From assembly GCA_021156365.1 (NCBI GenBank), contig JAJNDK010000011.1, forward strand, positions 62,001 through 126,000: DNA of 64,000 nucleotides, read 5' to 3'. Below the pieces are notes generated by a model, which was given only the letters and a program-made list of their open reading frames with translations, was not told the origin of the DNA and made no database searches. Source of the DNA: Bacteroidota bacterium. GTDB lineage: Bacteria; Bacteroidota; Bacteroidia; B-17B0; Aurantibacillaceae. Positions 29,562 through 62,926 of the stretch are shown here, piece after piece. The position numbers and the translations under genes are program-made. Position 1 is the first letter of the stretch, and each line of letters starts with the position of its first letter.

Positions 29562-29562
29562 T

Positions 29563-35544: not shown

Positions 35545-36699
35545 ATGGAAAATAAAAATTCTGAATTGCAGGTTTGTACCCGTTGTATTTATGATACCAC
35601 GCTGCCTTCCATCAGCTTTGATGAGCAGGGAGTTTGCAATTATTGCCGGATGCTGGATGACCTGCAGGCCGAATATCATGCAGGAGAGCCGGAGGGTGAA
35701 GCAACTCTGGATAAGCTTGTGGAAGAGATCAAACAGTCGGGCAAAGGAAAAAAATATGACTGTATCATCGGAGTGAGTGGAGGAACCGATTCTTCGTATA
35801 TGATGCATTGGGCTATACAAAAAGGATTGAGGCCATTAGCAGCCCATTTTGATAATACTTATAATACATCCATTGCCACGCAGAATATCCAGAAGATCAC
35901 ACAGAAATTAGGGATTGATCTGTACACACATGTGGTGGACAATAAAGAAATGGATGATATTTACCGCGCATTTATTCTTTCGGATGTCACGGAGATCGAT
36001 TGTGCAACGGATATTGCACTTGCAGAAGTGCTGTACAGGGCGGCAGCGAAATATAAAGTGAAATATGTACTGGAAGGGCATTCCTTCCTGGAGGAAGGAA
36101 TAACCCCATTGGGGAAAGGGTACTTTGACGGGAAATACATTTCAGGGATCCATAAGAAATTCGGAAAAATGAAAATGAAGACGTTTCCCAATATGCCTTT
36201 CTGGAGCTTTATTAAATGGATCGCCTTTCTGCGGATCAAAAAGATCAGGCCTTACTGGTATACACATTATAAAAAAACGGAAGCAAAAGCTTTTATGACA
36301 AAGGAGTATGGCTGGGAAGACTATGGAGGGCATCACCTGGAAAACCGCTTGTCAGCATTTGCCCACAGTTATTATTTGCCGCATAAATTTAATATTGATT
36401 ACCGGAATAAGACATTGGGAGCACAAATACGAAATGGATATATGAACAGGGAAGAAGCGCTGAAGGAATATGCTTCCGAACCGTATCTTGAACAGGGCCT
36501 TATCGATCACATAAAGAAACGTTTGGGCTTCAGCGATGAAGAATTTGACCGTATCATGAAAGCCACACCGAAATACTGGACGGATTATCCAACCTATAAA
36601 AAACGGTTCGAGCTCATGCGCCCTTTCTTCTACCTGATGTACAAGTCAAACCTGGTACCGAAGAGCTTTTATATGAAATATTGTTTCCCCGTAAAATAA
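35545..36699 (+). CDS. N-acetyl sugar amidotransferase (WbpG/PtmG/PseA-like)
   Basis: This 384-aa PP-loop ATPase activates the acetamido group of a sugar and replaces its oxygen with ammonia, giving an acetamidino group. Two CxxC pairs (Cys11/14 and Cys31/34) probably bind zinc. The PP-loop SGGTDSS is at residues 78-84. Family segments include FVLEGHSFLEEGI-like (VLEGHSFLEEG) and GWEDYGGHHLENR. The glutaminase and its HisF-like partner follow immediately (36705, 37317), completing the triad known from Pseudomonas O-antigen (WbpG-HisH2-HisF2) and from Campylobacter pseudaminic and legionaminic acid loci. The substrate is not proven. The downstream legionaminic genes make a nonulosonic acid plausible; a ManNAc3NAcA-type sugar is the alternative. 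Confidence 0.9.
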   Translation: MENKNSELQVCTRCIYDTTLPSISFDEQGVCNYCRMLDDLQAEYHAGEPEGEATLDKLVEEIKQSGKGKKYDCIIGVSGGTDSSYMMHWAIQKGLRPLAAHFDNTYNTSIATQNIQKITQKLGIDLYTHVVDNKEMDDIYRAFILSDVTEIDCATDIALAEVLYRAAAKYKVKYVLEGHSFLEEGITPLGKGYFDGKYISGIHKKFGKMKMKTFPNMPFWSFIKWIAFLRIKKIRPYWYTHYKKTEAKAFMTKEYGWEDYGGHHLENRLSAFAHSYYLPHKFNIDYRNKTLGAQIRNGYMNREEALKEYASEPYLEQGLIDHIKKRLGFSDEEFDRIMKATPKYWTDYPTYKKRFELMRPFFYLMYKSNLVPKSFYMKYCFPVK

Positions 36700-36704
36700 A
36701 ACAG

Positions 36705-37316
36705 ATGATCACGATCATAAATTACGGAATGGGAAACCTTGGCTCGATTGTAAACATGTTCAAAAAAATTGGCGTGGAAGCAAAGGTCACGGGCGATATC
36801 AAAGAAATAGAACAAGCAGACAAGATATTGTTGCCGGGAGTAGGCGCGTTTGATGCAGCCATGAGCAGGATCAAAGCAAATGGGCTCACGGAAGTACTGA
36901 ATTACAAAGCAACCGAACAGAAAGTACCGGTGCTGGGAATTTGTCTCGGGATGCAATTGCTTACAGATAGCAGTGAAGAAGGAATGTTGCCTGGTCTTGG
37001 CTGGATCCCTGCTAAAACGATCAAATTCAATTTCACCAAAGAATCGGGCCTCAAAGTGCCGCACATGGGATGGAATATGGTAAAAGAAAACAGACCAAGC
37101 CAGCTTACAAAAGACTTCGAAGAAGAATCGCGCTTTTATTTTGTGCATTCCTATTATGTGAAATGTGAGAACGATGAAAACTCCGTTCTGAAAACGAATT
37201 ATGGACTGGAATTCGATTCGGCCATTCAGAAAGACAATATTTACGGGGCACAGTTTCACCCCGAAAAAAGCCACAAATTTGGCATGAAATTATTGAAGAA
37301 TTTTGATGCGATATAA
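36705..37316 (+). CDS. hisH: HisH-like glutamine amidotransferase of the amidination triad
   Basis: This is a 203-aa class I glutaminase that releases ammonia from glutamine. The nucleophile is Cys80 (GICLGMQLL) and the catalytic His185/Glu187 are in QFHPEKSH. The ATG at 36705 begins the fold (ITIINYGMGNLGS). It ends exactly where the HisF-like gene begins. No other his genes are present, and the partner lacks a cyclase residue, so its job is to feed ammonia to the sugar amidotransferase and not to make histidine. Confidence 0.92.
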   Translation: MITIINYGMGNLGSIVNMFKKIGVEAKVTGDIKEIEQADKILLPGVGAFDAAMSRIKANGLTEVLNYKATEQKVPVLGICLGMQLLTDSSEEGMLPGLGWIPAKTIKFNFTKESGLKVPHMGWNMVKENRPSQLTKDFEEESRFYFVHSYYVKCENDENSVLKTNYGLEFDSAIQKDNIYGAQFHPEKSHKFGMKLLKNFDAI

Positions 37317-38078
37317 ATGCTACAAACACGCGTAATACCCTGCCTATTACTGAAGGACGATGGTCTCGTAAAGACTGTTCAATTCAAAAATTCGGCTTAT
37401 GTAGGTGATCCGATCAATACGGTGCGGATCTTTAATGAGAAGGAAGTGGACGAGCTGATTTTTCTGGATATCCAGGCCAGCCCGCTCCACAAAGAACCGG
37501 ATTTCAAATTACTTGCAGAGATCGCCAACGAGTGTTTCATGCCGCTTGCTTATGGCGGTGGATTACGCAATATAGAACAGGTAAAAAGGATCTTCAATAT
37601 TGGCATAGAAAAAGTAGCGATCAATACACACGCGCATGAGAATCCTGCTTTTGTAACGGAGATTGCAGAATTATATGGTTCACAGGCAGTGATTGCATCC
37701 ATCGATGTTAAAAAGAATTTCTGGAAAAAGGCAGAAGTTGTTTCTTCATCCGCATCCAAAAAACATAAATACAGCCCGGTGGAATGGGCAAAAGAAATGC
37801 AGGAGAGGGGAGCCGGCGAGATCCTGCTTACATCCGTGGATAAAGAAGGCACATGGGATGGCTATGATCTGGACCTGATCAAATCCGTTACGTCAGTGGT
37901 GGATATCCCTGTGATCGCACATGGCGGAGCCGGAATGCTCAGTGATTTCACTGCAGCAAAAAAAACAGCGAATGCCTCGGCGATGGGCATTGGAAGCATG
38001 GTGGTTTATCAAAAGAAGGACATGGGTGTGCTCATTAATTTCCCCGATAGGAAAAAACTGGAGGCAGCACTTAATTAG
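37317..38078 (+). CDS. HisF-like acetamidino-modification protein (WbuZ/HisF2 type)
   Basis: This is a 253-aa TIM-barrel protein that pairs with the HisH-like glutaminase. The start is RVIPCLLLKDDG, where true HisF has a catalytic Asp in CLDVKDG. Here the residue is Leu11, so imidazole-glycerol-phosphate cyclisation should not work. The later Asp (VIASIDVKK) and the phosphate-binding loops (YGGGLRN, AHGGAGM) remain. It therefore most likely serves as an ammonia channel for the amidotransferase at 35545. It begins on the base after the HisH stop codon. Confidence 0.9.
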   Translation: MLQTRVIPCLLLKDDGLVKTVQFKNSAYVGDPINTVRIFNEKEVDELIFLDIQASPLHKEPDFKLLAEIANECFMPLAYGGGLRNIEQVKRIFNIGIEKVAINTHAHENPAFVTEIAELYGSQAVIASIDVKKNFWKKAEVVSSSASKKHKYSPVEWAKEMQERGAGEILLTSVDKEGTWDGYDLDLIKSVTSVVDIPVIAHGGAGMLSDFTAAKKTANASAMGIGSMVVYQKKDMGVLINFPDRKKLEAALN

Positions 38079-42275: not shown

Positions 42276-43274
42276 ATGTTAGCAAAATCAAAAAAAATAC
42301 TGGTCACGGGAGCAGATGGCTTTATCGGCAGTCACCTCGTAGAAACATTGGTAGACGAAGGCTATGATGTAAGAGCATTCGTGTATTACAATTCTTTCAA
42401 TTCCTGGGGATGGCTGGATTCCTTCCCGGCAGACAAACTAAAGAAGATCGAGATCTTTGCCGGTGATATCCGTGATCCGAACGGGGTACGCACGGCAATG
42501 AAAGATGTGAACATTGTTTTTCATCTTGCAGCATTGATCGCTATTCCTTTTTCTTATCACTCACCTGACAATTATGTAGACACAAACATAAAAGGTACGC
42601 TGAACATTTTGCAGGTAGCGAGAGATTACAATGTAGAGCGTGTATTGGTTACATCCACTTCCGAAGTATACGGAACAGCTTTGTATGTACCGATCGACGA
42701 AAAACATCCAAAACAGGGGCAATCACCTTACTCAGCAACTAAAATAGGTGCTGATTACCTTACGGATTCTTTTTACAGGAGTTTCAATCTGCCGGTTACG
42801 ATCGTCCGGCCATTTAATACTTATGGACCTCGCCAGTCGGCCAGAGCGGTGATCCCGACGATCATTACCCAGTTGCTGAATGGAAAGAAAGAAATAAAAT
42901 TAGGAGCCCTGCATCCGACCCGCGATCTTTTGTTTGTGAAGGATACGGTGCGTGGATTTATGGAGATCGCCTCTTCTCCTGATGTGATCGGCGAGGAAGT
43001 GAATATTGCCACCAACTCCGAGATAACGATTGGCGACCTCGCACAGAAACTGATCAATACTATTCTTCCGGATGCGAAGATAATCAGTGATGATGTGCGT
43101 TTACGCCCGGAAAAAAGTGAAGTGGAACGGCTGTTTGGCGACAACAAAAAGATCATTTCAAAAACGAATTGGAAACAACAGGTATCGCTGGATGAAGGCC
43201 TGCAACTGACCATCGATTGGTTCAGACAAAAAGAAAACCTGAACAGGTACAAAGCCGATATATACAATGTATAA
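42276..43274 (+). CDS. legB: LegB-type sugar-nucleotide 4,6-dehydratase
   Basis: This is a 332-aa extended SDR. In the legionaminic acid pathway it turns a (GDP- or UDP-)GlcNAc into the 4-keto-6-deoxy sugar with retained configuration. The NAD motif is TGADGFIGSH (about residues 11-20), the active-site segment TSTSEVYGTA is followed by SPYSATKIGAD with the Tyr-x3-Lys pair, and PFNTYGPRQSARAVIPT is the substrate region. The next gene is the matching LegC aminotransferase, overlapping by 8 bases, which supports the assignment. Confidence 0.9.
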   Translation: MLAKSKKILVTGADGFIGSHLVETLVDEGYDVRAFVYYNSFNSWGWLDSFPADKLKKIEIFAGDIRDPNGVRTAMKDVNIVFHLAALIAIPFSYHSPDNYVDTNIKGTLNILQVARDYNVERVLVTSTSEVYGTALYVPIDEKHPKQGQSPYSATKIGADYLTDSFYRSFNLPVTIVRPFNTYGPRQSARAVIPTIITQLLNGKKEIKLGALHPTRDLLFVKDTVRGFMEIASSPDVIGEEVNIATNSEITIGDLAQKLINTILPDAKIISDDVRLRPEKSEVERLFGDNKKIISKTNWKQQVSLDEGLQLTIDWFRQKENLNRYKADIYNV

Positions 43275-44409
43275 CGATATAATTAGCAAAATAAAATCTC
43301 TGTATCCCGGGCAGGACTTCATTCCTCTTCATGAGCCACGGTTCAATGAAAAGGACAAGGCCTATGTGATGGATGCGATCGATTCTACTTTCGTTTCTTC
43401 AGTGGGAAAGTATGTAGATAAATTTGAGGACATGATGCGTGACTATACCGGCGCTTCCTACGCGATCGCCGCCGTGAATGGTACTGCTGCTCTGCACATG
43501 TCATTATTGATAGCCGGAGTGGAACGCAACGATATGGTGATCACGCAGGCGCTTTCTTTTATTGCGACTTGCAACGCCATCAGTTATATAGGTGCAGAGC
43601 CTGTTTTTGTGGATGTGGCATTGAACACCCTCGGGATGTGCCCGGACAAGCTGAAAGATTTTTTGAAAAATGAAACAGAACTGAAAAGCGGTGTTTGTTA
43701 TCATAAGAAAACAGGAAAACGTATTTCTGCCTGTGTGCCTATGCATACTTTCGGGCATCCGGTTGCGATCGAAGCTATTATGGAGCTTTGCGCGGAATAT
43801 GGAATTAAATTAGTGGAAGACGCCGCAGAGTCTATCGGAAGCACATACAAAGGTAAGCACACCGGCACTTTCGGTTTGATCGGGGCTTTCAGTTTCAACG
43901 GGAATAAAACCATTACCTGTGGTGGCGGTGGCGCTATTGTTACGAACGATCCCGTATTGGCAAAGCACTGTAAGCATCTGACCACACAGGCAAAGATCCC
44001 ACACCGCTGGGAATTTAATCACGATCACGTGGGATATAATTACCGCCTGCCGAATCTGAACGCGGCAATGGCCTGTGCACAGATGGAGCAACTGGACGGT
44101 TTTATTGCCAACAAACGGGAGCTTGCTGCTATCTACAAAGAGTTTTTTGCCCCGCAGCCAATAGAATTTATCGTTGAGCCTGCAGACGCAAAATCCAATT
44201 ACTGGCTCAATGCAGTTTTGGTAAAAGACAGGAAAAAACGCGATGAATTTTTGACCGCTACCAATGAGGCAGGTGTAATGACACGACCGGTGTGGACTTT
44301 GATGACAAAATTAACTATGTTCGAAAAAGCAGTGTGCGGCGATCTTTCTGTATCACAGGAGATCGAAGACAGGCTGGTTAATATTCCAAGCAGCGTAAGA
44401 ATCAACTAG
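43267..44409 (+). CDS. legC: LegC-type PLP aminotransferase
   Basis: This is a 380-aa DegT-family enzyme that aminates C4 of the LegB product. The expected PLP lysine is in SFNGNKTITCGGGG, with EDAAESIGSTYKG before it. The N-terminus (YPGQDFIPLHEPRFN, then STFVSSVGKYVDKFE) is typical of the LegC group and distinguishes it from the two aminotransferases further upstream. The start overlaps the end of legB (ATGTATAA). Confidence 0.93.
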   Translation: MYNDIISKIKSLYPGQDFIPLHEPRFNEKDKAYVMDAIDSTFVSSVGKYVDKFEDMMRDYTGASYAIAAVNGTAALHMSLLIAGVERNDMVITQALSFIATCNAISYIGAEPVFVDVALNTLGMCPDKLKDFLKNETELKSGVCYHKKTGKRISACVPMHTFGHPVAIEAIMELCAEYGIKLVEDAAESIGSTYKGKHTGTFGLIGAFSFNGNKTITCGGGGAIVTNDPVLAKHCKHLTTQAKIPHRWEFNHDHVGYNYRLPNLNAAMACAQMEQLDGFIANKRELAAIYKEFFAPQPIEFIVEPADAKSNYWLNAVLVKDRKKRDEFLTATNEAGVMTRPVWTLMTKLTMFEKAVCGDLSVSQEIEDRLVNIPSSVRIN

Positions 44410-44410
44410 T

Positions 44411-45358
44411 ATGACGGACACAATCAATATACTTTTTCTCGGGGGAGCCAAGCGCGTTTCTGTTGCAGAATCTTTTGTCGCTGCGGGTAAAAGCCTGGGC
44501 AAACAGATTGCTGTTTTCTCATACGAGCTCGATAAATTTGTGCCGATCGGAAGCATGGCAGAGATCATTATCGGTTTGAAATGGAACGATGAAAATGTGA
44601 TCGCACATTTGCAGCAGGTAGTGAAAGAAAAGAATATCCATATCATTTTACCTTTTGTTGATCCTGCAACGGTTTTGGCAGCGAAACTAAAAGATATAGT
44701 ACCGGATGTGTTCATTCCTGTTTCAGATGTGGAAACCTGCCGGATATTTTTTGATAAAGGGATCGCTGATGAATGGTTCAGAAAACAAGGCTTTGCAGTG
44801 CCTTCCGATACTTCCGGATTTCCGTTGATTGCAAAGCCCCGCAAAGGTTCAGCTTCGCAGGGTTTAACGATCATTCGCTCGGCAGAGGAACTGGCGCATT
44901 TTAAGCAAAACAATAAATCCGGCGATTTTTTGATCCAGAAATACCTGGTGGCAAACGAATATTCGGTGGATGCGCATGTTTCCACAAGCGGTGAAGCGAT
45001 CTTTGTTGTTCCCCGCAAACGTCTGGAAGTAGGATCCGGTGAAGTAACTAAATCCGTTACAATAAAAGACAAAGAGATCATAGAAATTTCCAAACGTGTT
45101 ATTTCTCTTGTGAAATTCCGCGGACCGATCACCTTGCAATTTCTTCGTGAAAAGGAAAACAATAGCTTAACGATCATGGAGATCAATCCGCGTTTCGGTG
45201 GCGGAGTGGTTACTTCTATTCATGCAGGGGCAGATTCCTGCCTGATGCTGTTGAAAGAGTACCTGGGACAGCAGATCGAAGTGATAGACAACTGGAAAGA
45301 AAACCTGGTAATGACCAGGGCCTACAGAGAATTTTACTACTATGCAGATAATAATTGA
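44411..45358 (+). CDS. ATP-grasp domain protein
   Basis: This is a 315-aa ligase-type protein that would join a carboxylate and an amine through an acyl-phosphate. The N-terminal pre-ATP-grasp part begins INILFLGGAKRVSVAESF. The nucleotide-binding core shows PLIAKPRKGSASQGL and DFLIQKYLVANEYSVD, and the metal site is in TIMEINPRFGGGV. It resembles CarB-like single-domain ligases found in glycan loci. The product is unknown, and an aminoacyl decoration of a sugar is a guess. It overlaps the HAD gene by 17 bases, and a second ATP-grasp/HAD pair occurs at 61302-62926. Confidence 0.85.
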   Translation: MTDTINILFLGGAKRVSVAESFVAAGKSLGKQIAVFSYELDKFVPIGSMAEIIIGLKWNDENVIAHLQQVVKEKNIHIILPFVDPATVLAAKLKDIVPDVFIPVSDVETCRIFFDKGIADEWFRKQGFAVPSDTSGFPLIAKPRKGSASQGLTIIRSAEELAHFKQNNKSGDFLIQKYLVANEYSVDAHVSTSGEAIFVVPRKRLEVGSGEVTKSVTIKDKEIIEISKRVISLVKFRGPITLQFLREKENNSLTIMEINPRFGGGVVTSIHAGADSCLMLLKEYLGQQIEVIDNWKENLVMTRAYREFYYYADNN

Positions 45359-45671
45359 CATGGACGGTACCATTTGTACCGAAGAAAAAACCTACAGCAG
45401 AAGCATGGCAACACCTAAGGAAGGCGCTGTGGATGCTGTAAACTCCCTCTACGATCAGGGACATACGATCATCATTTACTCCGCTCGTACCTGGATGGAG
45501 TTCGAGATGACCACACACTGGTTAAAGACAAACAACATTAAGTACCACCAGCTGATCCTGGGTAAACCTATTGGCGATCTGTGGATAGACGACCGCGCCC
45601 TTACATTTGACAATTGGGAGAATATGGTAAACAAAGTAAAAGAAAAAGGGAAGAATAAAAAGGATGTTTAA
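45342..45671 (+). CDS. Small capless HAD-like phosphatase
   Basis: This is a 109-aa protein with the HAD nucleophile motif DMDGT (residues 6-10), the second motif in IIIYSARTW (Ser), and a late acidic site WIDDRALTF. No cap domain is present. Similar small proteins are annotated as capsular biosynthesis proteins or phosphoheptose-type phosphatases. It is embedded by overlaps between the ATP-grasp gene and an acyltransferase gene. Confidence 0.85.
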   Translation: MQIIIDMDGTICTEEKTYSRSMATPKEGAVDAVNSLYDQGHTIIIYSARTWMEFEMTTHWLKTNNIKYHQLILGKPIGDLWIDDRALTFDNWENMVNKVKEKGKNKKDV

Positions 45672-46206
45672 GCACCTTAAATTCATATTGTTGTTTCCGA
45701 AGATTGGCCCGGATATGTACTTCACGCACTGGCTCCTGTTCTTCAAACCTTTCAGGATCTGGTTCCAGAAGGCAAAGATCGGCAACATCGGTAAAAACTC
45801 TGAAGTGAGACCGTATTGTACGATCATTGGCACACGCAATATTTTTATCGGTAAGAATGTTATTCTTCCTCCCAATTCCCTGTTTGTGAATTTGCCGGGA
45901 AATAATCAATCGAATATTCACATTGAGGACGATGTGCTCTTCGCTCCAAATGTAGCAGTATACAGTGTAACACATACATTCACCGACGTTAGCCGACCAG
46001 TAAAAGACCAGCCGGTGAAAGTAGCAGAGACCCGTTTGAAAAAAGGTTGTTGGATCGGTATTAATTGTGTGATACTTCCGGGGATCACGATAGGAGAGAA
46101 TAGTGTGGTAGCTGCGAACTCCGTAGTAACAAAAGATGTCCCTGATTTTACATTGGTAGGCGGAACACCTGCCAGGATCATTAAAAATTTAAAAGAAAAT
46201 GGATAA
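45664..46206 (+). CDS. Left-handed beta-helix acetyltransferase
   Basis: This is a 180-aa hexapeptide-repeat acyltransferase: SEVRPYCTIIGTRNIFIGK, then GCWIGINCVILPGITIG, SVVAANSVVTKDVP and the end GGTPARIIKNLKENG. Placed between legC and neuB, it is one candidate for the C4 N-acetylation step (LegH) that is otherwise unassigned here. A maltose/galactoside-type O-acetyltransferase role is equally possible. It overlaps both neighbours by 8 bases. Confidence 0.85.
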   Translation: MFKHLKFILLFPKIGPDMYFTHWLLFFKPFRIWFQKAKIGNIGKNSEVRPYCTIIGTRNIFIGKNVILPPNSLFVNLPGNNQSNIHIEDDVLFAPNVAVYSVTHTFTDVSRPVKDQPVKVAETRLKKGCWIGINCVILPGITIGENSVVAANSVVTKDVPDFTLVGGTPARIIKNLKENG

Positions 46207-47224
46207 TAACGTATTTATTATTGCAGAAGCCGGTGTGAATCACAATGGCAGCATGCAAATGGCGAAACAACTGATCGATGCGGCTGCCGAAGCCAAAGCC
46301 GATGCCGTGAAATTCCAGACATTCATCGCAGAGAATGTAATGTCGAGATACGCTGTAAAAGCCGAATACCAGAAAGAATCAACGGGCGGAGATGAGAGCC
46401 AGCTGGAAATGGTGAAAAAACTGCAGTTAGGTTTTGATGATTTTATCGAGCTGAAAAAATACTGTGAAGGGAAAAATATTCAATTCCTTTCCACGCCTTT
46501 CGATCTCGTGAGTGTAGACTTTCTGAAAACATTGAATATGGGGCTTTGGAAAATTCCTTCGGGTGAGATCACCAATCTTCCGTATCTCACCAAAATCGGT
46601 GGCTACAAAGAGAAAGTGATCTTCTCTACTGGGATGAGCACTTTGGGTGATATTGAAAACGCATTGGGCATTCTTATTGCAGCCGGAACAGCGAAGGAAA
46701 ATATTACTGTTCTGCATTGTAACACGGAGTACCCAACCCCGATGAAGGATGTCAACCTGAAAGCTATGCTGACGATCAAAAATGCATTTGGAATTGATGT
46801 TGGTTATTCCGATCATACACTTGGGATCGAAGTTCCGGTGGCAGCCGTTGCGATGGGAGCAACCGTGATCGAAAAACATTTTACATTGGATAAATCCCTG
46901 CCGGGCCCCGATCATCAGGCTTCTTTGGATCCCACAGAATTAAAACAAATGGTGGCTGCGATCCGCAACATCGAGGCAGCAATGGGTACAGGAACAAAAG
47001 TACCGTCCCCTTCCGAAAAGAAGAATATGGATATTGCAAGGAAGAGCGTGCATCTGACAAGAGATATTAAAAAAGGGGAAGTGTTGACAGCTGCTGACCT
47101 TACTATAAAACGTCCGGGTAATGGCATCAGCCCGATGATGATCAATGAGATCATTGGTTGCGTAGCCATGAAAGACCTGAAAGAAGATTATTTGTTGCAT
47201 CTCAACGACTTTGCATGGAAATAG
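46199..47224 (+). CDS. neuB: N-acetylneuraminate/legionaminate synthase (NeuB/LegI)
   Basis: This is a 341-aa enzyme that condenses a hexosamine with phosphoenolpyruvate to form the nine-carbon acid. The TIM-barrel motifs are present: IAEAGVNHNGSM, DAVKFQTF, LSTPFD, KIPSGEITNLP, LHCNTEYPTP and GYSDHTLG. The C-terminal SAF antifreeze-like domain (about 280-341) contains VLTAADLTIKRPGNGI. With LegB and LegC upstream the product is more likely legionaminic acid than sialic acid. It overlaps the genes on both sides. Confidence 0.95.
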   Translation: MDNNVFIIAEAGVNHNGSMQMAKQLIDAAAEAKADAVKFQTFIAENVMSRYAVKAEYQKESTGGDESQLEMVKKLQLGFDDFIELKKYCEGKNIQFLSTPFDLVSVDFLKTLNMGLWKIPSGEITNLPYLTKIGGYKEKVIFSTGMSTLGDIENALGILIAAGTAKENITVLHCNTEYPTPMKDVNLKAMLTIKNAFGIDVGYSDHTLGIEVPVAAVAMGATVIEKHFTLDKSLPGPDHQASLDPTELKQMVAAIRNIEAAMGTGTKVPSPSEKKNMDIARKSVHLTRDIKKGEVLTAADLTIKRPGNGISPMMINEIIGCVAMKDLKEDYLLHLNDFAWK

Positions 47225-48324
47225 CCATCCTCACCAGCTCCAGGGCTGATTACGGTTTATATCGTCCGCTCATGAATGAGCTGAAAAAACAAAAGACGGT
47301 AAAAGCGGGCTTTGTTGTATTCGGGACTCATTTGTCTTCGAAGCATGGCAATACTGTTGATCAGATCAAAGCGGACGGTTACAAAATCTGGAAAGAGATC
47401 AAAACCTTAATGAAAGGCGATTCTCCGGAAGTCATTGCAAAAACGATCGGGCAGGTGCATGAAAAGTTTGCATCGTATTGGGCAAAAACAAAATTCGACC
47501 TGGTGATCTGCCTCGGTGACCGCTATGAAATGTACGGAGCTGTTTCAGCTTCTGTACCTTTCAATATTCCCGTAGTGCACATCAGCGGAGGCGAAGAGAC
47601 GCTCGGAGCTATTGATAATTACTACCGGCATGCACTTACTCTGATGTCTGCGTATCATTTTACGAATACAAAAAATAATGCGCGAAGGGTGGCACAGATC
47701 CTGAACTCGGATAAAAACGTGTTCTTCACCGGCTCACTTACCGTTGATAATATCAATGGTACAAAGCTCCTGTCATCCAAAGAATTTAAAAAAAAATTTC
47801 AATTCGATATTTCAGAGCCTTTTGTGCTCTTTACGTTCCATCCGGAGACTGTGAACTACAAACAGAATGTTGCATTCGGCCGGACGATCCGGAAAGTGTT
47901 GGGCGCGCAAAAGATGAATGTACTGGTGACCATGCCGAATGCCGATACAATGGGTGATACGATCCGCAAAGAATTATTCGCAGTTGCAAAAGAGAACAAA
48001 CATATTCACCTGGTCGAGTCGCTTGGTTCACGGGGATACTATACGGCGATGAAAAAATGCCTGTATGTAATGGGCAATTCTTCCAGCGGTATTGTGGAAG
48101 CAGCTTCCTTCGGAAAGTATGTGATCAATATGGGCGACAGGCAGAAGGGCAGGGAACAGGGAAAAAACATAGTAAACGTATCCATCAATGAAAAGGAAAT
48201 AGGAAAAGCAATGGAACGGATAAAAACTTTGCCGCAATTAGGCACCCACAATATATATGGTGATGGGAAAGCTGCGGCCCGTATGCAAAAAGTACTAAGT
48301 AAAATAAAAAAAGACAATGGCTAA
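47215..48324 (+). CDS. neuC: Hydrolysing sugar-nucleotide 2-epimerase (NeuC/LegG)
   Basis: This is a 369-aa GT-B-fold enzyme that hydrolyses and epimerises the (GDP or UDP)-diacetamido sugar, giving the free mannosamine-type substrate of NeuB. I chose the ATG at 47215, which overlaps neuB by 10 bases and begins at the first conserved strand (AILTSSRADYGLYRPL). Other conserved segments are HISGGEETLGAIDN, FTFHPETVNY and MGNSSSGIVEAASFG. The longer frame from 47158 lies inside neuB and adds unrelated residues. Confidence 0.94.
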   Translation: MEIAILTSSRADYGLYRPLMNELKKQKTVKAGFVVFGTHLSSKHGNTVDQIKADGYKIWKEIKTLMKGDSPEVIAKTIGQVHEKFASYWAKTKFDLVICLGDRYEMYGAVSASVPFNIPVVHISGGEETLGAIDNYYRHALTLMSAYHFTNTKNNARRVAQILNSDKNVFFTGSLTVDNINGTKLLSSKEFKKKFQFDISEPFVLFTFHPETVNYKQNVAFGRTIRKVLGAQKMNVLVTMPNADTMGDTIRKELFAVAKENKHIHLVESLGSRGYYTAMKKCLYVMGNSSSGIVEAASFGKYVINMGDRQKGREQGKNIVNVSINEKEIGKAMERIKTLPQLGTHNIYGDGKAAARMQKVLSKIKKDNG

Positions 48325-49369
48325 TTTAGACAACAGCACGATCAGTCCGAATGGTAAACTAAAGGATGCCATGGAAAAGATCAATTTTGTTCCTGCCGGC
48401 TCCACCTTATTCGTGATCGACGATTCCAGCCAAAAGGTGGTTGGAACGCTCACTGATGGTGACATCCGCCGGGGCCTGCTGAAAGGCATAACCATAGAGG
48501 ATGAAGTTCACAAAGTGATGAAGACCTCTTTCAGGTACCTCACCAAAGGAAATTATTACAACGATAAGATCAATAATTTCCTGAGCCTGAAATTAAAGAC
48601 CATTCCTTTATTGGACGATGATGGAAAGTTGCTGAAGATCTATGATCTTACCATTCTGAAAAGCGTATTGCCGATCGATGTGGTTTTTATGGCAGGAGGA
48701 AAGGGCGAACGCCTCTACCCGATGACACAAAATACCCCCAAGCCTTTACTTCCTATAGGTAACAAACCGATACTCGAGCACAACCTGGACCGCCTTTTGC
48801 TGAACGGAGTGGAAAATTTTTACATTTCGGTAAATTACCTGGGGCATATGATCAAGGATCATTTTAAGGATGGAAGTCATAAAAATGCGCGGATCAGTTA
48901 TATTGACGAGGATCGCCCGCTCGGTACGATCGGCGCGGTTTCCAAGATCGATGATTTTCGGAATGAAACAGTGCTGATCATGAACTCCGACCTGCTGACC
49001 AATATCGATTTTGCCGGCTTTTACAAAGAATTTATTACGCAGAATGCAGATGTGGCCATTGCGGCTATTCCGTATAAAGTAAGCATTCCATATGCTGTAA
49101 TGGAAACAAAGGATAACATTGTGAGTGAGCTGAAAGAGAAGCCAACGTATACCTATTACTCGAATGCAGGTATGTACCTGATAAAACGAAAATTGCTGGA
49201 AACAATTCCACGTGACACCTTTTATAATGCAACCGAATTTTTGGATCAGGCAATTGAACGCTCTGATAAAGTAATTTCCTACCCGATGATTGAGTACTGG
49301 CTGGACATTGGCCGTCCTGATGATTACCTGAAAGCCCAGGAAGACATTAAACACCTGAATTTTTTGTAA
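48317..49369 (+). CDS. CBS-nucleotidyltransferase fusion (PtmE-like sugar-1-phosphate guanylyltransferase)
   Basis: This is a 350-aa protein. Residues ~1-120 hold a CBS-domain pair (TLFVIDDSSQKVVGTLTDGD, then IPLLDDDGKLLKIYDL). Residues ~123-350 are a nucleotidyltransferase with FMAGGKGERLYPMT, TPKPLLPIG and LIMNSDLLT. In Campylobacter, PtmE has this architecture and makes GDP-glucosamine at the head of the legionaminic pathway. The position between NeuC/LegG and NeuA/LegF supports the same role. Nucleotide preference cannot be read from the sequence. Confidence 0.88.
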   Translation: MANLDNSTISPNGKLKDAMEKINFVPAGSTLFVIDDSSQKVVGTLTDGDIRRGLLKGITIEDEVHKVMKTSFRYLTKGNYYNDKINNFLSLKLKTIPLLDDDGKLLKIYDLTILKSVLPIDVVFMAGGKGERLYPMTQNTPKPLLPIGNKPILEHNLDRLLLNGVENFYISVNYLGHMIKDHFKDGSHKNARISYIDEDRPLGTIGAVSKIDDFRNETVLIMNSDLLTNIDFAGFYKEFITQNADVAIAAIPYKVSIPYAVMETKDNIVSELKEKPTYTYYSNAGMYLIKRKLLETIPRDTFYNATEFLDQAIERSDKVISYPMIEYWLDIGRPDDYLKAQEDIKHLNFL

Positions 49370-49375
49370 GCTGCA

Positions 49376-50098
49376 ATGAATATTTTAATTACCATATGTG
49401 CACGTGGCGGTTCCAAAGGGATACCGGGAAAGAATATCAAGCCTATTGATCACAAGCCCCTGGTCGCATACAGTATTCTGTGTGCAAAAGAGTTTGCAAA
49501 ACATCACCATTCAAAGCTTACCCTGTCTACCGATGATGCAGCTATTAGAAAAGCGGCCGCTGAATTCGGATTGGAAACTACCTATACCCGTGGTGAAGAG
49601 CTTGCGGGAGATACTGCAGGAAAGATCGATGTGATCAAAGACATCCTTTACTATGAGGAAGGATTGCTGAAAGCTAAGTACGATCTGGTATTGGATCTGG
49701 ATGTTACTTCCCCTTTGCGCAGTGTAAGCGATCTCAATAAGGCATTTAAGATATTAATGGATGATCCGGAATGTATTACCCTTTTTTCAGTGAACCCTGC
49801 TAACCGCAATCCTTACTTTAATATGGTGGAAGAACGAGGAGACGGATATATTCACTTAAGCAAAAAGCTGGAAGGTACTCTGCTCACGCGTCAGTCAGCT
49901 CCTAAAGTGTATGACGTAAATGCTTCTTTTTATTTTTATAAGCGTCGTTTTTTCGATCTGGGTTTAAAATCACCGATTACGAATGCAACAAAAGTATACG
50001 TAATGGATCATATCTGTTTCGATCTCGATCACCCGATCGATTTTGAATTTATGGAATACCTGATCGTAAATAAGAAACTTGATTTTGATCTGGCATAA
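49376..50098 (+). CDS. CMP-nonulosonate (acylneuraminate) cytidylyltransferase (NeuA/LegF)
   Basis: This is a 240-aa enzyme that activates the nonulosonic acid with CTP. The nucleotide-binding start ICARGGSKGIPGKNIK, LSTDDAAIRKAAAEFG and DLDVTSPLRSVSDL are characteristic of the family. It lies 6 bases after the PtmE-like gene. Its product is the donor for a nonulosonate transferase; the candidate is the gene at 51760. Confidence 0.93.
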   Translation: MNILITICARGGSKGIPGKNIKPIDHKPLVAYSILCAKEFAKHHHSKLTLSTDDAAIRKAAAEFGLETTYTRGEELAGDTAGKIDVIKDILYYEEGLLKAKYDLVLDLDVTSPLRSVSDLNKAFKILMDDPECITLFSVNPANRNPYFNMVEERGDGYIHLSKKLEGTLLTRQSAPKVYDVNASFYFYKRRFFDLGLKSPITNATKVYVMDHICFDLDHPIDFEFMEYLIVNKKLDFDLA

Positions 50099-50101
50099 AA
50101 T

Positions 50102-51025
50102 ATGAAATTCGGTTTTGTAGGATACGGTTCCATTGCTAAAAAGCACATTAAGGCCATCAACAGCCTGTTCCCGGATGCTTCCTGTCTCATTGTACGCAGG
50201 GCAGAGGACGGAAAAGGTATGGATGCGGAAAACGCAAATTGCACTATCTCCACTAATATGATGGATCTGCTGGAGGTGGATTTTATTTTCATTACCAATC
50301 CCACTTTCCTTCATGTGGAAACGATCGAAATGGTACTGAAATTCCAAAAGCCGCTTTTTATAGAAAAACCACTGGCCTCGTCTCTTGATCTTGTACCGGA
50401 AATGATAAGGGCTCTGGATAGATTACGTATACCAAATTATGTAGCCTGTAATATGCGTTTTCATATATGCATGAACTTTTTGAAAAAGGAATTGCTACCC
50501 GGACTGAGAATAAATGAAGTGAATGTATACTGCGGATCGTATCTGCCCGATTGGCGCCCTGGAACGGACTTCCGGAAATCCTATAGCTCCAATGAAAACA
50601 TGGGTGGAGGTGTGCATCTCGATCTGATCCATGAGCTTGATTATTGTTATTACCTGTTCGGGGCACCGAAACAGCATTTCAATGTGCTGACGAAAAAATC
50701 CGCCTTAGAGATAAATGCAATTGATTATGCTCATTATCATTGGCAGTACAAAGATTTCTCTGCACAGATCACTTTGAATTATTTTCGTAGGGATTACAAA
50801 CGAACGCTGGAGATCGTGGCAGAAGATGCTACTTATCTGGTTGATTTCAAGAACGGAAAAGTGGAAAGGAACGGTGAAGTGATTTTCTCCGATGACCCGG
50901 ATGTAAACGTGATGTATCAACGGCAGATCAGCTATTTTGTAAATTGCGTAAAAGAAAAGAAAAAATGTTTTAATGATGTTCAGGAAGCATACAACGTTTT
51001 AAAATTGTGTTTAAATGGATCTTAA
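50102..51025 (+). CDS. Gfo/Idh/MocA-family oxidoreductase (PtmF-like)
   Basis: This is a 307-aa NAD(P)-dependent sugar oxidoreductase. The Rossmann start is FGFVGYGSIAKKHIKAI, followed by FIEKPLASSLDL and the C-terminal-domain hallmark GGGVHLDLIHELDY. Position and family match PtmF of the Campylobacter legionaminic locus, where PtmF and PtmA are thought to help supply the glucosamine precursor. The equivalence is by analogy only. It overlaps the next gene by 11 bases. Confidence 0.85.
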   Translation: MKFGFVGYGSIAKKHIKAINSLFPDASCLIVRRAEDGKGMDAENANCTISTNMMDLLEVDFIFITNPTFLHVETIEMVLKFQKPLFIEKPLASSLDLVPEMIRALDRLRIPNYVACNMRFHICMNFLKKELLPGLRINEVNVYCGSYLPDWRPGTDFRKSYSSNENMGGGVHLDLIHELDYCYYLFGAPKQHFNVLTKKSALEINAIDYAHYHWQYKDFSAQITLNYFRRDYKRTLEIVAEDATYLVDFKNGKVERNGEVIFSDDPDVNVMYQRQISYFVNCVKEKKKCFNDVQEAYNVLKLCLNGS

Positions 51026-51752
51026 AGGAAAAATAATTGTAGTGACCGGTGGTCTCGGTCTCCTTGGAAAAGCGTATGTGGCGCATCTTACTGAAAAGGG
51101 AGCGACTGCTATATGCGCAGATATTAATTGTAAGGATGACCTCGCAGCCAATCAGCTCTATCTTGACATTACGAATGAGAAAGGCGTAAAAGATGTTGTT
51201 GCAAAACTTGTGGAGACCTATGGCAAAATAGATGGCTGGATCAATAATGCCTATCCGCGTACTGCTGATTGGGGCAAATGGATCGATGAGCTGCCCTTCG
51301 AATCCTGGAGAAAAAATATAGACATGCACCTGAACGGTTATTTTCTGTGCTGCCAGAATGTGCTGGAGCAGATGAAAAAACAACAGAGCGGTTCCTTCAT
51401 TAATATGGCATCCATTTATGGTATAGTCGGGCCGGACTTCACTGTCTATGAAGGCACACAGATGGGCAATGCGGTTGGCTATGCAGCTATCAAAGGCGGA
51501 CTGATCAATCTTACAAGATATCTTGCTTCCTATTATGGAAAATTCAATGTTCGTGTGAATTGTATTTCACCGGGCGGAATCTTTGACAATCAACCCGAAC
51601 CGTTTTTATCGAACTACAATAAGAAAGTGCCCCTGAAACGAATGGGCACGCCTGCAGATATTGCTCCTTCCGTATCATTCCTGATGTCGGACGAAGCGGC
51701 TTATATCACCGGGCATAACCTGGTAATAGACGGAGGCTGGACAGCTATTTAA
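51015..51752 (+). CDS. Classical SDR oxidoreductase (PtmA-like)
   Basis: This is a 245-aa short-chain dehydrogenase. The cofactor motif is TGGLGLLGKAYV, the structural segment is WINNAYPRT, the active site is INMASIYG with GYAAIKGG (Tyr-x3-Lys), followed by VNCISPGGI. It pairs with the Gfo/Idh gene just upstream, as PtmA pairs with PtmF in Campylobacter. The substrate is unproven. Confidence 0.88.
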   Translation: MDLKGKIIVVTGGLGLLGKAYVAHLTEKGATAICADINCKDDLAANQLYLDITNEKGVKDVVAKLVETYGKIDGWINNAYPRTADWGKWIDELPFESWRKNIDMHLNGYFLCCQNVLEQMKKQQSGSFINMASIYGIVGPDFTVYEGTQMGNAVGYAAIKGGLINLTRYLASYYGKFNVRVNCISPGGIFDNQPEPFLSNYNKKVPLKRMGTPADIAPSVSFLMSDEAAYITGHNLVIDGGWTAI

Positions 51753-51759
51753 GCTTGGG

Positions 51760-53337
51760 ATGAAAATTGCAGTTGTAAAAAAGATAACACAAAGTATACT
51801 GCCGGAGCTTGCGGCAAAAAAGATCGATACGGTTATTTTTTGTCAGCTGGATACGAAGGTGAATTACATGTCCTTGTCTTCGGATTATAAACTGGTCAAT
51901 GCATTCGATGATACTTCCAACGCAAATTGGTATAATTTCGAGCTGACTGCAGCGAAGCTTGGGTATTTATCTAAGGAAGTTCCTTCACTCTTTACTTACA
52001 AAGGAATAGATCTCCTGCCTGCTCTGAATAAGGATCTGTTCTGGTCTTTGCTGATCGAGCACAGTTTATTGTTCCAGATTGAAAAATATAAGTCGAAAGA
52101 AAATACCATTCTTTTTTTTGGAGAGCGCTCTTCTTTCATAAAAAAACTGGCACTGCTCCGGAAAGTATTCCTGAACAAAGACAGTTCCTATACGATCCAG
52201 TCCGATGTCTTTAAAGAAGAAAGAACCGGAAAGATCGCATTCCGGGTAAATGATCTGGCATTGCTCACTATGTACGGGAACCTACTGGAAACACTGGGAA
52301 AACAAAACCTTATTTCTTTTCAATCGAAAACAGTAAAAGCCCCAAAGGAATTGTCTGCAGGTTTAGCAAAGAATTTCAATGAAAATATAGCTTCACTGCC
52401 TTCCACTAAGAAGCACTTGAAAATGGGTTTTCCAACAAAGCTAAAATTATTATTTCTGAAAGAAGATGCTGATTTCCTGATCAATTTTGTACATGTATTG
52501 GGAAAGCTATATAATCATGTGGAGGAGTATGAAAAGCTGTTCAAAGCTGGTGTTCGGAAAATAATTCTGAACGCAGGCGAGAACGAAGGAGAAGGAAATG
52601 TGGTATGTGCGCTTGCGAAAAAGTATGACGCAAAGACATTCAACTACATGAACGGTACCAAGGCACGTGATCCACAAAATATGAATTCCTTCTTTGATTT
52701 TTGGTTCATGCCCGATATTCAAACGCAGGAGCTTATCCTTTCCTATTGCAAAGTGGATAAAGACCAGGTGCCGGTTACAGGACACTTGCTGCAGGAGTTT
52801 GCTGAAAAGCATCAATATGGCGGAACACTGGATAGCCTGACCAATAAGCTGGAGAATAAAAAAATAATTTCACTTTTCACTTCAAAGATATTTGCTGGAG
52901 AAATAAATTCGGTGCTTGAGTTTTTGCCTCGATATCTGGATCTGCATCCGGAGCTTGTGGTGCTCATCCGTCAGCATCCGGCCGAAACAGCACCTTACTC
53001 ACTTTCGCATGACCGTATCATTCAATTGCCAAAATTTACCGGCGATCTTTCACAGGTCAGTCTTTTCGATCTGCTTTCAAAAGCGGCTGTTACGATTGCT
53101 TTTTCTTCTACTGTTTCGTACCAGTCTTCCTGGTTTGGTATTCCTTCCATTAATTACGAAGTGGCAGAAAAATCCAGACTTACCTTTGTGGACGGAGAAA
53201 AAGTAGTGCATATCAATAGCATTGAAAAACTGGAAAAGAGCCTGAATGGATATTTGTTTGAAGGGGCTAATTCTTCCGCCGGTAGGAAAGCATTGAACAC
53301 ATCAGCAGAAATGGCTGCTATTATGCAACAGGCATAG
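51760..53337 (+). CDS. Uncharacterised GT-B-like protein, candidate nonulosonic acid transferase
   Basis: This is a 525-aa cytosolic-looking protein; I do not recognise a named family. The C-terminal half resembles capsule-type GT-B transferases. It has IILNAGENEGEGN, later LVVLIRQHPAET (an HP motif), then TIAFSSTVSYQSSWFGIPSIN (cut here to its key part: FSSTVSYQSS). HP and Ser-Ser motifs of this kind occur in bacterial sialyltransferase families and Kdo-type transferases. It follows directly after the CMP-nonulosonate genes (7 bases after the SDR), which is why I propose it transfers the activated nonulosonic acid. The N-terminal ~200 residues have no visible motif. Confidence 0.55.
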   Translation: MKIAVVKKITQSILPELAAKKIDTVIFCQLDTKVNYMSLSSDYKLVNAFDDTSNANWYNFELTAAKLGYLSKEVPSLFTYKGIDLLPALNKDLFWSLLIEHSLLFQIEKYKSKENTILFFGERSSFIKKLALLRKVFLNKDSSYTIQSDVFKEERTGKIAFRVNDLALLTMYGNLLETLGKQNLISFQSKTVKAPKELSAGLAKNFNENIASLPSTKKHLKMGFPTKLKLLFLKEDADFLINFVHVLGKLYNHVEEYEKLFKAGVRKIILNAGENEGEGNVVCALAKKYDAKTFNYMNGTKARDPQNMNSFFDFWFMPDIQTQELILSYCKVDKDQVPVTGHLLQEFAEKHQYGGTLDSLTNKLENKKIISLFTSKIFAGEINSVLEFLPRYLDLHPELVVLIRQHPAETAPYSLSHDRIIQLPKFTGDLSQVSLFDLLSKAAVTIAFSSTVSYQSSWFGIPSINYEVAEKSRLTFVDGEKVVHINSIEKLEKSLNGYLFEGANSSAGRKALNTSAEMAAIMQQA

Positions 53338-60477: not shown

Positions 60478-61329
60478 TTGAAGGCTGAAGAAAACATATT
60501 GATCATTGGATCCAACAGTTTCCTCGCAAAATGTCTGATTGGCAAACTGAAGGACACTGCCAACATTACGGGTGTGTATCACATCTCCACGCATCTTCAT
60601 GAAGCGGGTGTTGAATATATAAATGTTGCAACACTGGATCAGTTGCAGGATGTATTCGAAGTGGTGTATCTGATCAGTGCTTATGTACCCGAGAAAGGAA
60701 ATACGGATTATTACAATTTATATGCAGTGAATGTAGAGCTCGCAGAAAAAGTGTCAAAACAATTCCCTTCAGCGCATATCGTACTGGCATCATCGGTTTC
60801 TGTTTACGGCGAACCGGAAGGTATCATCAATGAAAGGACAGCTTCAATAAAAACAAATCCATATGGTCTGAGTAAATTATGGGCAGAGGAAATGATCAAG
60901 CAACATTCTTCTTATTCGATACACCGGATCTCTTCCATGTATGGCGAGCATATGAAAACAAGTACTTTTTTACCCCTTATCTGTAAAAATGCAATTCAGC
61001 ACGGAAAAATTACTTTACTGGGAACTGGAGAAAGAAAACAGAATTATATACATGTGAACGATGTGGCTGAGTCAATGATCAACGCTGCCAACCGGAAGGG
61101 GAAAGGAATTTTTTTAAGTGTGTATCCACAATCATTTTCGAACCGGGAGATCGCGGGTATGATAAAAGAGCAGATGCCAGGTACACAGATAGAGTTTCAG
61201 GGCACTGATCATTCGCCCTCGTATGTATATGATGCGGAGTTTAGCTATACATCATTGGAATGGAACTGTAAGACAAATATGCAAACGGGAATAAAACAAC
61301 TATGCGAATGGATAAAAAAAGGATCTTAG
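60478..61329 (+). CDS. NAD-dependent epimerase/dehydratase-like SDR
   Basis: This is a 283-aa Rossmann-fold protein. The start is a TTG (60478) placed directly after the previous TAA; no ATG fits before the first strand NILIIGSNSFLAKCL. The active-site part is VLASSVSVYGEPEG with NPYGLSKLWAEEM (Tyr-x3-Lys), and NYIHVNDVAESMINA is a family signature. The glycine motif (GSNSFLAK) is atypical compared with GxxGxxG. It probably makes a keto- or deoxy-sugar nucleotide. It overlaps the ATP-grasp gene by 28 bases. Confidence 0.85.
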   Translation: MKAEENILIIGSNSFLAKCLIGKLKDTANITGVYHISTHLHEAGVEYINVATLDQLQDVFEVVYLISAYVPEKGNTDYYNLYAVNVELAEKVSKQFPSAHIVLASSVSVYGEPEGIINERTASIKTNPYGLSKLWAEEMIKQHSSYSIHRISSMYGEHMKTSTFLPLICKNAIQHGKITLLGTGERKQNYIHVNDVAESMINAANRKGKGIFLSVYPQSFSNREIAGMIKEQMPGTQIEFQGTDHSPSYVYDAEFSYTSLEWNCKTNMQTGIKQLCEWIKKGS

Positions 61330-62267: not shown

Positions 62268-62926
62268 TGATAAAAGCACTATTATTTGACGCTGCGAATA
62301 CGCTGATCTATAAACCGGATCTGCTCGATCGTATCGATACTGTATTGAAAAAACATGGATACGAAGTAAATAAGGAATTACTTCGCTCACGGCATAAGCT
62401 GGTATCCGAGATCATTCATTTTCCCGACAGGACCGATAGCAGCTTTTACGAGCATTTCAATAGTGAGTTGCTTTTGTCTTTGGGTATACTTCCAGACAAG
62501 CATCTTCTGGACGATGTGTTTTCTGCCTGCACTTATTTACCCTGGCATTTGTTTGAGGATTGTAAGGAATTAAATGCGCTCGCTTTGCCTAAGTATGTGC
62601 TTTCTAATTTTAATACCGGACTGGATGAATTGATGAATAGGTTGATGCCCGGTTGTTTTGAAGGTTACATTGTTTCGGAAAAAGAAGGATGCAGGAAGCC
62701 CGACACCAGATTTTATGAGCTGGCCATACAGAAACTGGGTGTAAAGCCCGGAGAGATTGCATATGTAGGCGATTCATTGAAGCTGGACATCATTCCCGCC
62801 CGGAAATGCGGGATGAATGCCATTTTAATTGACAGGTTCGGCGATTTTAGTAATTTTGAGCATCGCATGAATTCTTTTGGACAGATGCAGGGCATTATTG
62901 ATACATTAAATAAACAAAGCGCGTGA
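62267..62926 (+). CDS. HAD-superfamily hydrolase
   Basis: This is a 219-aa phosphatase-like protein with an alpha-helical C1 cap. Motif I is LLFDAANTL, where the usual DxD second Asp is replaced (D-A-A-N), so phosphatase activity may be reduced or changed. Motif II is YVLSNF, the Lys is in GCRKPDTRFYELA, and motif IV is YVGDSLKLDIIPA. It is linked by overlap to the ATP-grasp gene upstream and the GT2 gene downstream. Confidence 0.85.
   Translation: MIKALLFDAANTLIYKPDLLDRIDTVLKKHGYEVNKELLRSRHKLVSEIIHFPDRTDSSFYEHFNSELLLSLGILPDKHLLDDVFSACTYLPWHLFEDCKELNALALPKYVLSNFNTGLDELMNRLMPGCFEGYIVSEKEGCRKPDTRFYELAIQKLGVKPGEIAYVGDSLKLDIIPARKCGMNAILIDRFGDFSNFEHRMNSFGQMQGIIDTLNKQSA

Follow-up and report, generated by a model that had tools for sequence, protein, structure and literature searches.

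How is the 4-amino sugar acylated in a legionaminic acid (Leg) pathway whose gene cluster has no obvious gene for the N-acyltransferase LegH? This question is raised by a gene run at positions 42276-51752 of a 64,000-nucleotide stretch of DNA from a Bacteroidota bacterium (assembly GCA_021156365.1, contig JAJNDK010000011.1, positions 62,001 to 126,000 of the forward strand; hereafter the window), which belongs to a genome of 5.3 Mb assembled into 23 contigs. An original prediction, made from the letters of the window, had read the run as a cytidine monophosphate (CMP)-legionaminic-type pathway with a guanosine diphosphate (GDP)-linked precursor branch. We found that the slot between the LegC and LegI genes is occupied by an ATP-grasp gene and a small HAD gene, and sequence comparison suggests that this pair probably carries out the N4-acylating step in place of LegH. 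The genes of the run were assigned as follows.

42276..43274, + strand: LegB, nucleotide-sugar 4,6-dehydratase (TIGR04180, 500.8 bits, cut-off 475)
43267..44409, + strand: LegC, 4-aminotransferase (TIGR04181, 550.8, cut-off 420)
44411..45358, + strand: proposed N-acyl ligase of the ATP-grasp type, in the LegH slot (PF15632 and PF02655 above gathering)
45342..45671, + strand: small HAD protein of 109 residues, proposed phosphatase, overlapping the ATP-grasp gene
45664..46206, + strand: hexapeptide acyltransferase, perhaps a GDP-GlcN (glucosamine) N-acetyltransferase, GlmU/WeiJ-like (PF00132, 53.6)
46199..47224, + strand: LegI, nonulosonate synthase (TIGR03569, 501, cut-off 399.65; tree position)
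47221..48324, + strand: LegG (NeuC), hydrolysing 2-epimerase (TIGR03568, 388.4, cut-off 235.9)
48317..49369, + strand: PtmE-type CBS-nucleotidyltransferase (PF00483, NTP_transferase, 132.7; N-terminal CBS 22.6, just below the gathering value of 24)
49376..50098, + strand: LegF, probable CMP-nonulosonate synthetase (PF02348 54.4, above gathering; PseF model 94.1, below its cut-off of 205.7)
50102..51025, + strand: PtmF-type Gfo/Idh/MocA oxidoreductase (PF01408, 49.3)
51015..51752, + strand: PtmA-type SDR (NF050062, the PtmA model, 182, below its cut-off of 350; PRK09186 261.4, above its cut-off of 255)

The eight functions named in the original prediction (LegB, LegC, NeuB, NeuC, and the PtmE, NeuA, PtmF, and PtmA types) were all recovered at the same positions on the + strand, and matches to families and curated models support a CMP-legionaminic-type gene set with PtmE, PtmF, and PtmA types. 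The genes form a single packed run in which most overlap their neighbours and the rest lie a few bases apart. The earlier description of the eight as contiguous is correct for this packing; however, three genes (44411, 45342, and 45664) separate LegC from the NeuB homologue, and only 45664 had been named, the ATP-grasp and HAD genes having been overlooked. In the reading of the open reading frame list, the ATG at 47221 was preferred over the TTG at 47158 as the NeuC start. It is very likely that this gene set makes a CMP-legionaminic-type acid.

No NeuD-type gene was found between LegC and LegI in the window (GNAT-type LegH was not searched for), which agrees with the earlier statement that no dedicated LegH is obvious; the likeliest replacement, ATP-grasp plus HAD, had escaped notice. 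To place this arrangement, slot occupants were compared in 29 clusters with LegC and LegI types, namely 14 from a LegB sample, 5 from an ATP-grasp sample, 9 from a NeuB sample, and the window. The LegB sample was drawn from a phylum sample of 395 genomes, 25 of which (the window's own included) contained LegB above the cut-off; the 28 best non-own LegB loci were taken, 24 above the cut-off of 475 and four below it, at 399.5 to 474.3 bits. A NeuD-type LegH occupied the slot in 16 of the 29 clusters, one of which (G303) also contained a formyltransferase, and a formyltransferase without NeuD was present in three (G169, G187, and G042). Four of the slot NeuD proteins were profile-scanned, of which three passed TIGR03570 and that of G535 scored 152.7 against 160.8, the others resting on phmmer; the formyltransferases were identified by Pfam in G169 and G303 and by phmmer in G187 and G042. 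ATP-grasp plus HAD filled the slot in six clusters from six genera (the window, G238, G411, G420, G651, and G660), two of which carry an extra gene before LegI (45664 in the window and a 252-residue protein with no family match in G651). The remaining four clusters (G078, G231, G147, and G195) showed other arrangements. NeuD and the ATP-grasp/HAD pair were never found together in the slot (0/29; hypergeometric p 0.0036, with relatedness not corrected for). Because the slot is shared with N-acetyl- and N-formyltransferases, the target of the pair would be the C4 amine introduced by LegC, which later becomes N7.

Several observations weigh against this proposal. The six of 29 cannot be read as a frequency, as G411, G420, G651, and G660 entered the census through the ATP-grasp search; the pair occurred in one of the 14 non-own LegB-sample clusters and in none of the nine NeuB-sample clusters. 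The G660 copy of the ATP-grasp gene has an in-frame TGA, G411 is a contig of 8.5 kb, and an ATP-grasp gene without this small HAD gene is present in other Leg clusters (G535 and Ensifer). As a separate point, in the tree of LegI proteins, five of the six ATP-grasp/HAD clusters group with the NeuD-bearing G535 and G238 lies elsewhere, a distribution that makes gain or loss of the cassette by exchange probable.

Conservation of the two proteins was then compared. In a class sample (395 genomes), the ATP-grasp protein matched 12 non-own genomes at E ≤ 1e-20, and all five matches with at least 46% identity lay in the order LegC, ATP-grasp, HAD, LegI. Three of the seven weaker matches were examined; that of G535 lies inside a Leg cluster after LegI, and those of G708 and G122 are at most 3 kb from a DegT aminotransferase gene. 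Identity between the window and the other five clusters was 46-59% for the ATP-grasp protein and 67-77%, thus higher, for the HAD protein. In the phylum sample, HAD matches above 200 bits were found only in the window's own genome and G238, the next match scoring 76. Residues D6, D8, K75, and D83 of the HAD protein are invariant in 11 relatives, so that the DxD motif, the lysine, and the acidic motif IV are present; these are presumably the phosphatase motif residues. The EINPR motif, which we take to be the ATP-grasp metal site, is invariant in six ATP-grasp sequences.

The predicted model of the 44411 product (pLDDT, a per-residue confidence score, 89.2) has an ATP-grasp fold, with 2pn1 as the nearest solved structure (Z 33.7, root-mean-square deviation 2.0 over 281). 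PylC and amino-acid ligases such as RizA are among its fold neighbours; however, PylC is equalled in score by biotin carboxylases and PurK, and therefore the reaction cannot be read from the fold. The model fits an amide ligase to this extent. The protein has 315 residues with ATP-grasp matches only and contains no phosphoglycosyltransferase part of the PglB2 type. A second ATP-grasp/HAD pair is located at 61302-62926 of the window beside a glycosyltransferase gene; its ATP-grasp protein scored 156.4 bits to PRK12767.1-1 (cut-off 218), and its HAD protein, of 219 residues, has no significant similarity to the 45342 protein. In Priestia filamentosa p3, the ATP-grasp gene is followed by one for a weakly similar HAD protein.

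ATP-grasp amide ligases convert a carboxylate into an acyl phosphate, which is then attacked by an amine. We propose the following pathway, in which gene content and order, the slot occupants, conservation, and the repeated pairing and fusion are observed, whereas all reactions, the acyltransferase roles, and the acid are inferred. PtmF and PtmA, together with a household GlmM, would supply glucosamine 1-phosphate (GlcN-1-P), which PtmE would convert into GDP-GlcN, and the 45664 protein would N-acetylate this product. LegB would then dehydrate the sugar and LegC aminate C4. At this point the 44411 ATP-grasp protein would replace LegH and its acetyl-coenzyme A (CoA), using ATP to ligate to the 4-amine a carboxylic acid that is probably phosphorylated, and the 45342 HAD protein would strip the phosphate from the ligation product; a phosphate on the acid or the product is proposed because the HAD gene is coupled to the ligase gene. 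Release and 2-epimerisation by LegG, condensation with phosphoenolpyruvate by LegI, and addition of CMP by LegF would complete the route. In the end product, N7 would bear a group other than acetyl, and N5 might bear an acetamidino group from a WbuX-HisH-HisF module encoded upstream.

The first guess for the N7 group is N-glyceroyl derived from 3-phosphoglycerate, since there is a precedent in Neisseria PglB2 and Tannerella forsythia makes the N-glyceroyl acid Pse5Am7Gra with no known glyceroyl gene. By analogy with these systems glycerate may be the acid attached, although as a specific choice it is doubtful. According to the passages available, Neisseria PglB2, an ATP-grasp/phosphoglycosyltransferase protein, is proposed to place glycerate where PglB places acetyl, yielding a glyceramido-acetamido trideoxyhexose. 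PglB2 resembles the window protein in having an ATP-grasp domain in place of the PglB acetyltransferase domain and in acting on a 4-amino-trideoxy sugar; it differs in being bifunctional with a phosphoglycosyltransferase and in serving a uridine diphosphate (UDP) sugar, the comparison being one of descriptions and not of sequences. In T. forsythia ATCC 43037, which makes Pse5Am7Gra, the glyceroyl gene is called elusive in the passages seen (PMC6120980, PMC6388019).

The presence of PylC and RizA among the fold neighbours, and of Leg clusters with an ATP-grasp gene and no small HAD gene (G535 and Ensifer), would also suit a ligase that adds an amino acid or another unphosphorylated acid, with the HAD protein having another substrate, such as a sugar phosphate. 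The conserved adjacency of the two genes and the existence of single-frame proteins tie the HAD protein to the ligase, and ATP-grasp genes also recur near a larger HAD type (Priestia and Segatella), so that we regard this explanation as rather unlikely. In the Leg cluster of the Ensifer adhaerens plasmid (L170:10923-11906), the ATP-grasp gene overlaps LegI, and no small HAD protein was among the matches.

A further explanation is that the window encodes an ordinary Leg5Ac7Ac pathway in which 45664 or the NeuD-family protein at 63851 is LegH, and that the ATP-grasp/HAD pair makes a later decoration of the polysaccharide. The original prediction had offered the acyltransferases at 45664, 33947, 55897, and 63851 as LegH candidates. 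The 45664 gene, which lies between the HAD and LegI genes and away from PtmA, could itself be LegH. Its two nearest relatives in the fetched loci (126 and 128 bits) directly follow a PtmA type, and by this likeness 45664 may be a GDP-GlcN acetyltransferase; however, 12 of the 14 non-window PtmA loci have no 45664-like neighbour (present in 2/14), which speaks against that assignment and hence against our proposal. The 63851 protein passed its model (162.3 against a cut-off of 160.8), is the only NeuD above the cut-off in the window's genome, and could serve as a distant LegH from within the same locus. A DegT gene starts 22 bases after it, and because the NeuD gene is thus followed by its own aminotransferase gene, a role in the synthesis of a different amino sugar is more likely; it stays the main rival for the LegH role. 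The presence of more acyltransferase-type genes at 33947, 34998, and 55897 is also in keeping with an ordinary pathway, although each was set low as a LegH candidate: the 33947 protein is a FemAB-type match (67.8 bits against 260.35), that of 55897 is of the AAC(3)/Antibiotic_NAT type, and the hexapeptide matches of that of 34998 were all below the cut-off. Of the earlier candidates, 45664 and 63851 were thus kept and 33947 and 55897 were not favoured.

The other five ATP-grasp/HAD clusters bear on the same point. No 45664 relative occupies their slot, and as far as these loci were fetched, no NeuD-type match above 34 bits was present. Across the 29 clusters, the pair replaces LegH and never accompanies it in the slot. 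Together with the PtmA association of the 45664 relatives and the DegT gene downstream of 63851, these findings make an ordinary Leg5Ac7Ac pathway improbable, though a real chance remains, and we retain ATP-grasp plus HAD as the probable N4-acylating step.

Occurrences of the pair outside legionaminic clusters were also recorded. A search of IMG/VR with an alignment of the HAD protein gave 24 loci. In six contig pieces (L145-L150, of which L145-L149 have identical scores), the ATP-grasp gene adjoins the HAD gene, and a DegT aminotransferase gene follows about 0.9 to 1.5 kb on. In L151 (5153-10270), on a contig catalogued as viral, a single-frame ATP-grasp-HAD protein stands in a row with two NeuB-family synthases and DegT and SDR types, between the synthases and other sugar genes; in L158 and L163, ATP-grasp is likewise followed by HAD in one frame. 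The corresponding viral scan with the ATP-grasp alignment gave no match. Among plasmids, 121 records matched the ATP-grasp protein; 4 of the 20 listed were examined (H21, H22, H23, and H26), and all four have a DegT type at most 3 kb from the ATP-grasp gene. They comprise a Rickettsiales bacterium Ac37b plasmid with gmd, DegT, ATP-grasp (38%), and small HAD genes; a Priestia filamentosa plasmid with DegT, sugar transferase, ATP-grasp, and larger HAD genes; a Segatella copri plasmid with sugar transferase, ATP-grasp, HAD, and DegT genes; and a Phocaeicola plasmid with ATP-grasp and DegT genes.

These loci raise the tentative idea, to which we give slightly less than an even chance, that ATP-grasp plus HAD forms a general two-enzyme unit for the N-acylation of 4-amino sugars, in which a phosphorylated acid is ligated and then dephosphorylated without a CoA thioester. 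Such a cassette would swap with NeuD and formyltransferases in the Leg slot, would extend to the nonulosonate-like cluster of L151 and to a plasmid-borne GDP-6-deoxyhexose cluster, and would be of the type that N-glyceroyl acids such as Pse5Am7Gra still lack a gene for. Two observations temper this idea. In the frames of L151 and L158, Pfam detected ATP-grasp only, the HAD part being recognized by phmmer (46.9 and 38.7 bits with the window HAD protein) and by motif alignment; and the counts of DegT near ATP-grasp are raw counts from loci of a sort in which DegT genes are frequent.

None of the titles and abstract openings searched, subscription literature being mostly outside the search, described a nonulosonic acid cluster with an ATP-grasp/HAD step, and in the part of PMC3765264 that was available the single mention of ATP-grasp is in the title of a reference. 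The proposed replacement of LegH by the ATP-grasp/HAD cassette is thus new as far as this literature search reaches, whereas the GDP branch is already known. Recognition of bacteria by hosts, phages, and antibodies depends in part on the N-acyl groups of their sialic-acid-like sugars, and the genes for non-acetyl N-acyl groups are poorly known, the T. forsythia glyceroyl group being an example in the passages available (PMC6120980, PMC6388019). If the proposal is true, the slot occupant (acetyltransferase, formyltransferase, or ATP-grasp/HAD) would make it possible to predict the N7 group from the gene sequence; the reaction is directly testable with purified enzymes.

Whether the synthase is LegI or a sialic acid synthase was addressed with a phylogeny of 58 synthases (quick IQ-TREE; root chosen on PseI, 8h2c); seven rows that duplicated loci already represented were left out. 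The window synthase fell within a 35-row clade (SH-aLRT 97) holding synthases of Leg clusters, whereas meningococcal NeuB (1xuu) was in a separate 5-row clade (support 100). SpsE (1vli), which is reported in the passages seen to be required for legionaminic acid in B. subtilis, branched outside both clades. The tree was built without characterised Campylobacter or E. coli Leg proteins, and a blastn search of 42276-46200 against E. coli genomes gave no match. The synthase scored 287 with the PseI model, below its cut-off of 340.25, in contrast to 501 with TIGR03569 (cut-off 399.65). The latter model is named N-acetylneuraminate synthase, and passing it would be expected if the enzyme made N-acetylneuraminic acid and LegB and LegC served another sugar; the position in the Leg-cluster clade, apart from meningococcal NeuB, and the packing of all genes into one run make this very improbable. 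Identity as a sialic acid synthase, one part of the outcome under which the original prediction was to be abandoned, was therefore rejected. Four loci with LegB and PtmE clusters (G194, G320, G373, and G083; L090/L091, L066/L067, L084/L085, and L046/L047) have a synthase that groups with meningococcal NeuB; PtmF and PtmA relatives are present in three of them, and no LegC type of 300 bits was found in the stretch fetched. These loci may make a fusaminic-acid-like 9-deoxy nonulosonic acid with a C7 hydroxyl.

The PtmE, PtmF, and PtmA set had been called notable in a Bacteroidota locus. A PtmE relative of at least 100 bits was present in 25 of the 28 LegB loci, of which 19 have the CBS part covered (full length) and 6 are CBS-less; in the other three it was absent, and one of these contigs stops just past LegB. 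PtmA relatives above 120 bits were found in 9 of the 28. A full-length PtmE type was also present in 10 of 11 further NeuB-sample loci, which were picked for Leg-like synthases and in two to three of which PtmE was already visible at selection. The passages available on T. forsythia describe legBCHIGF with ptmE and Leg made from GDP-GlcNAc, N-acetylglucosamine (PMC6120980, PMC6388019). In view of these counts and papers, the claim of novelty was rejected, and neither the legionaminic pathway nor its GDP branch is unusual in this phylum. Relatives of LegB, LegC, LegG, LegI, and PtmE were also found on plasmids of Ensifer adhaerens, Subdoligranulum, and Aestuarium. A scan of genome contigs with the single PtmE protein gave two loci, one of which, in Hormoscilla (L003), has LegB, LegC, PtmE, and NeuD types. 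In six loci (G295, G016, G342, G156, G191, and G240), LegB adjoins a CBS-less nucleotidyltransferase of 232-269 residues, and no LegC/LegI pair was found in the stretch fetched; a LegB-like enzyme perhaps makes a different 6-deoxy sugar there.

The best NCBIfam models for the 48317 protein, all below cut-off, were mannose-1-phosphate guanylyltransferase (139.9) and Arch_glmU (137.8). Among proteins of solved structure, the closest in sequence were one from the 6-deoxy-manno-heptose pathway (86.2 bits) and, at 85.3 bits, mannose-1-phosphate guanyltransferase beta, with a UTP-glucose-1-phosphate uridylyltransferase not far below at 80.1 bits; these relatives do not discriminate between nucleotides.

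In Campylobacter jejuni, CMP-legionaminic acid is reportedly made through GDP-linked precursors, as Schoenhofen is said to have described in 2009. The window shares LegB, LegC, LegG, and LegI and, at the level of family matches, LegF and the PtmE, PtmF, and PtmA types with this route; unlike it, the window has no LegH in the slot and has ATP-grasp plus HAD instead, the likeness being drawn from gene families and without Campylobacter sequence. The UB4-type legBCHIGF and ptmE cluster of T. forsythia belongs to the same phylum and shares the pathway and the GDP-GlcNAc start, and it contains asnB, which is the suggested acetamidino gene there and can be compared with the AsnB type at 39319 in the window; in contrast to the window it has legH, and no ATP-grasp/HAD pair is named in the passages seen (PMC6120980, PMC6388019). 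Similarly, according to the passages available, Plesiomonas shigelloides has the same PtmE/F/A and Leg set, with homologues given from Vibrio fischeri and E. coli; its flagellar Leg cluster shares the PtmA, PtmF, PtmE, and LegF types and LegI, LegG, LegC, and LegB with the window, and a small 'GlmU' acyltransferase, comparable with 45664, is listed next to PtmA (PMC4481668). It differs in that LegH (217 residues) is present and the gene table contains no ATP-grasp protein (PMC4481668).

The following features lie around the run.

28695-30846: ABC-exporter-like pair, from the reading of the open reading frame list
35545..36699, + strand: WbuX-type N-acetyl sugar amidotransferase of the acetamidino module (TIGR03573, 231.1 bits, cut-off 203.2)
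36705..37316, + strand: HisH-type glutaminase of the acetamidino module (TIGR01855, 248.8, cut-off 105.4)
37317..38078, + strand: HisF2/AglZ-type acetamidino modification protein (NF038364, 364.9, cut-off 310)
39319: AsnB type, upstream of LegB
51760..53337, + strand: possible nonulosonate glycosyltransferase (weak; NF046086, BFO_1060, 25.2, cut-off 200; without a Pfam match)

The amidotransferase, glutaminase, and HisF2 partner of the acetamidino module are adjacent at 35545-38078, and all three scored above their cut-offs. TIGR04183, the type IX secretion system (T9SS) sorting domain, which we take to be a mark of Bacteroidota, gave 150 matches among 150 candidates scored in the window's genome and none in 14 control genomes. 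A pseudaminic acid cluster, with PseI, PseF, and PseC above their cut-offs, is located on another contig of the window's genome (G000:C8, about 315.9-324.9 kb, L081/L094), so that two different nonulosonic acids are probably produced from this genome. This pseudaminic acid cluster is adjoined by relatives of the ABC-exporter-like pair of the window.

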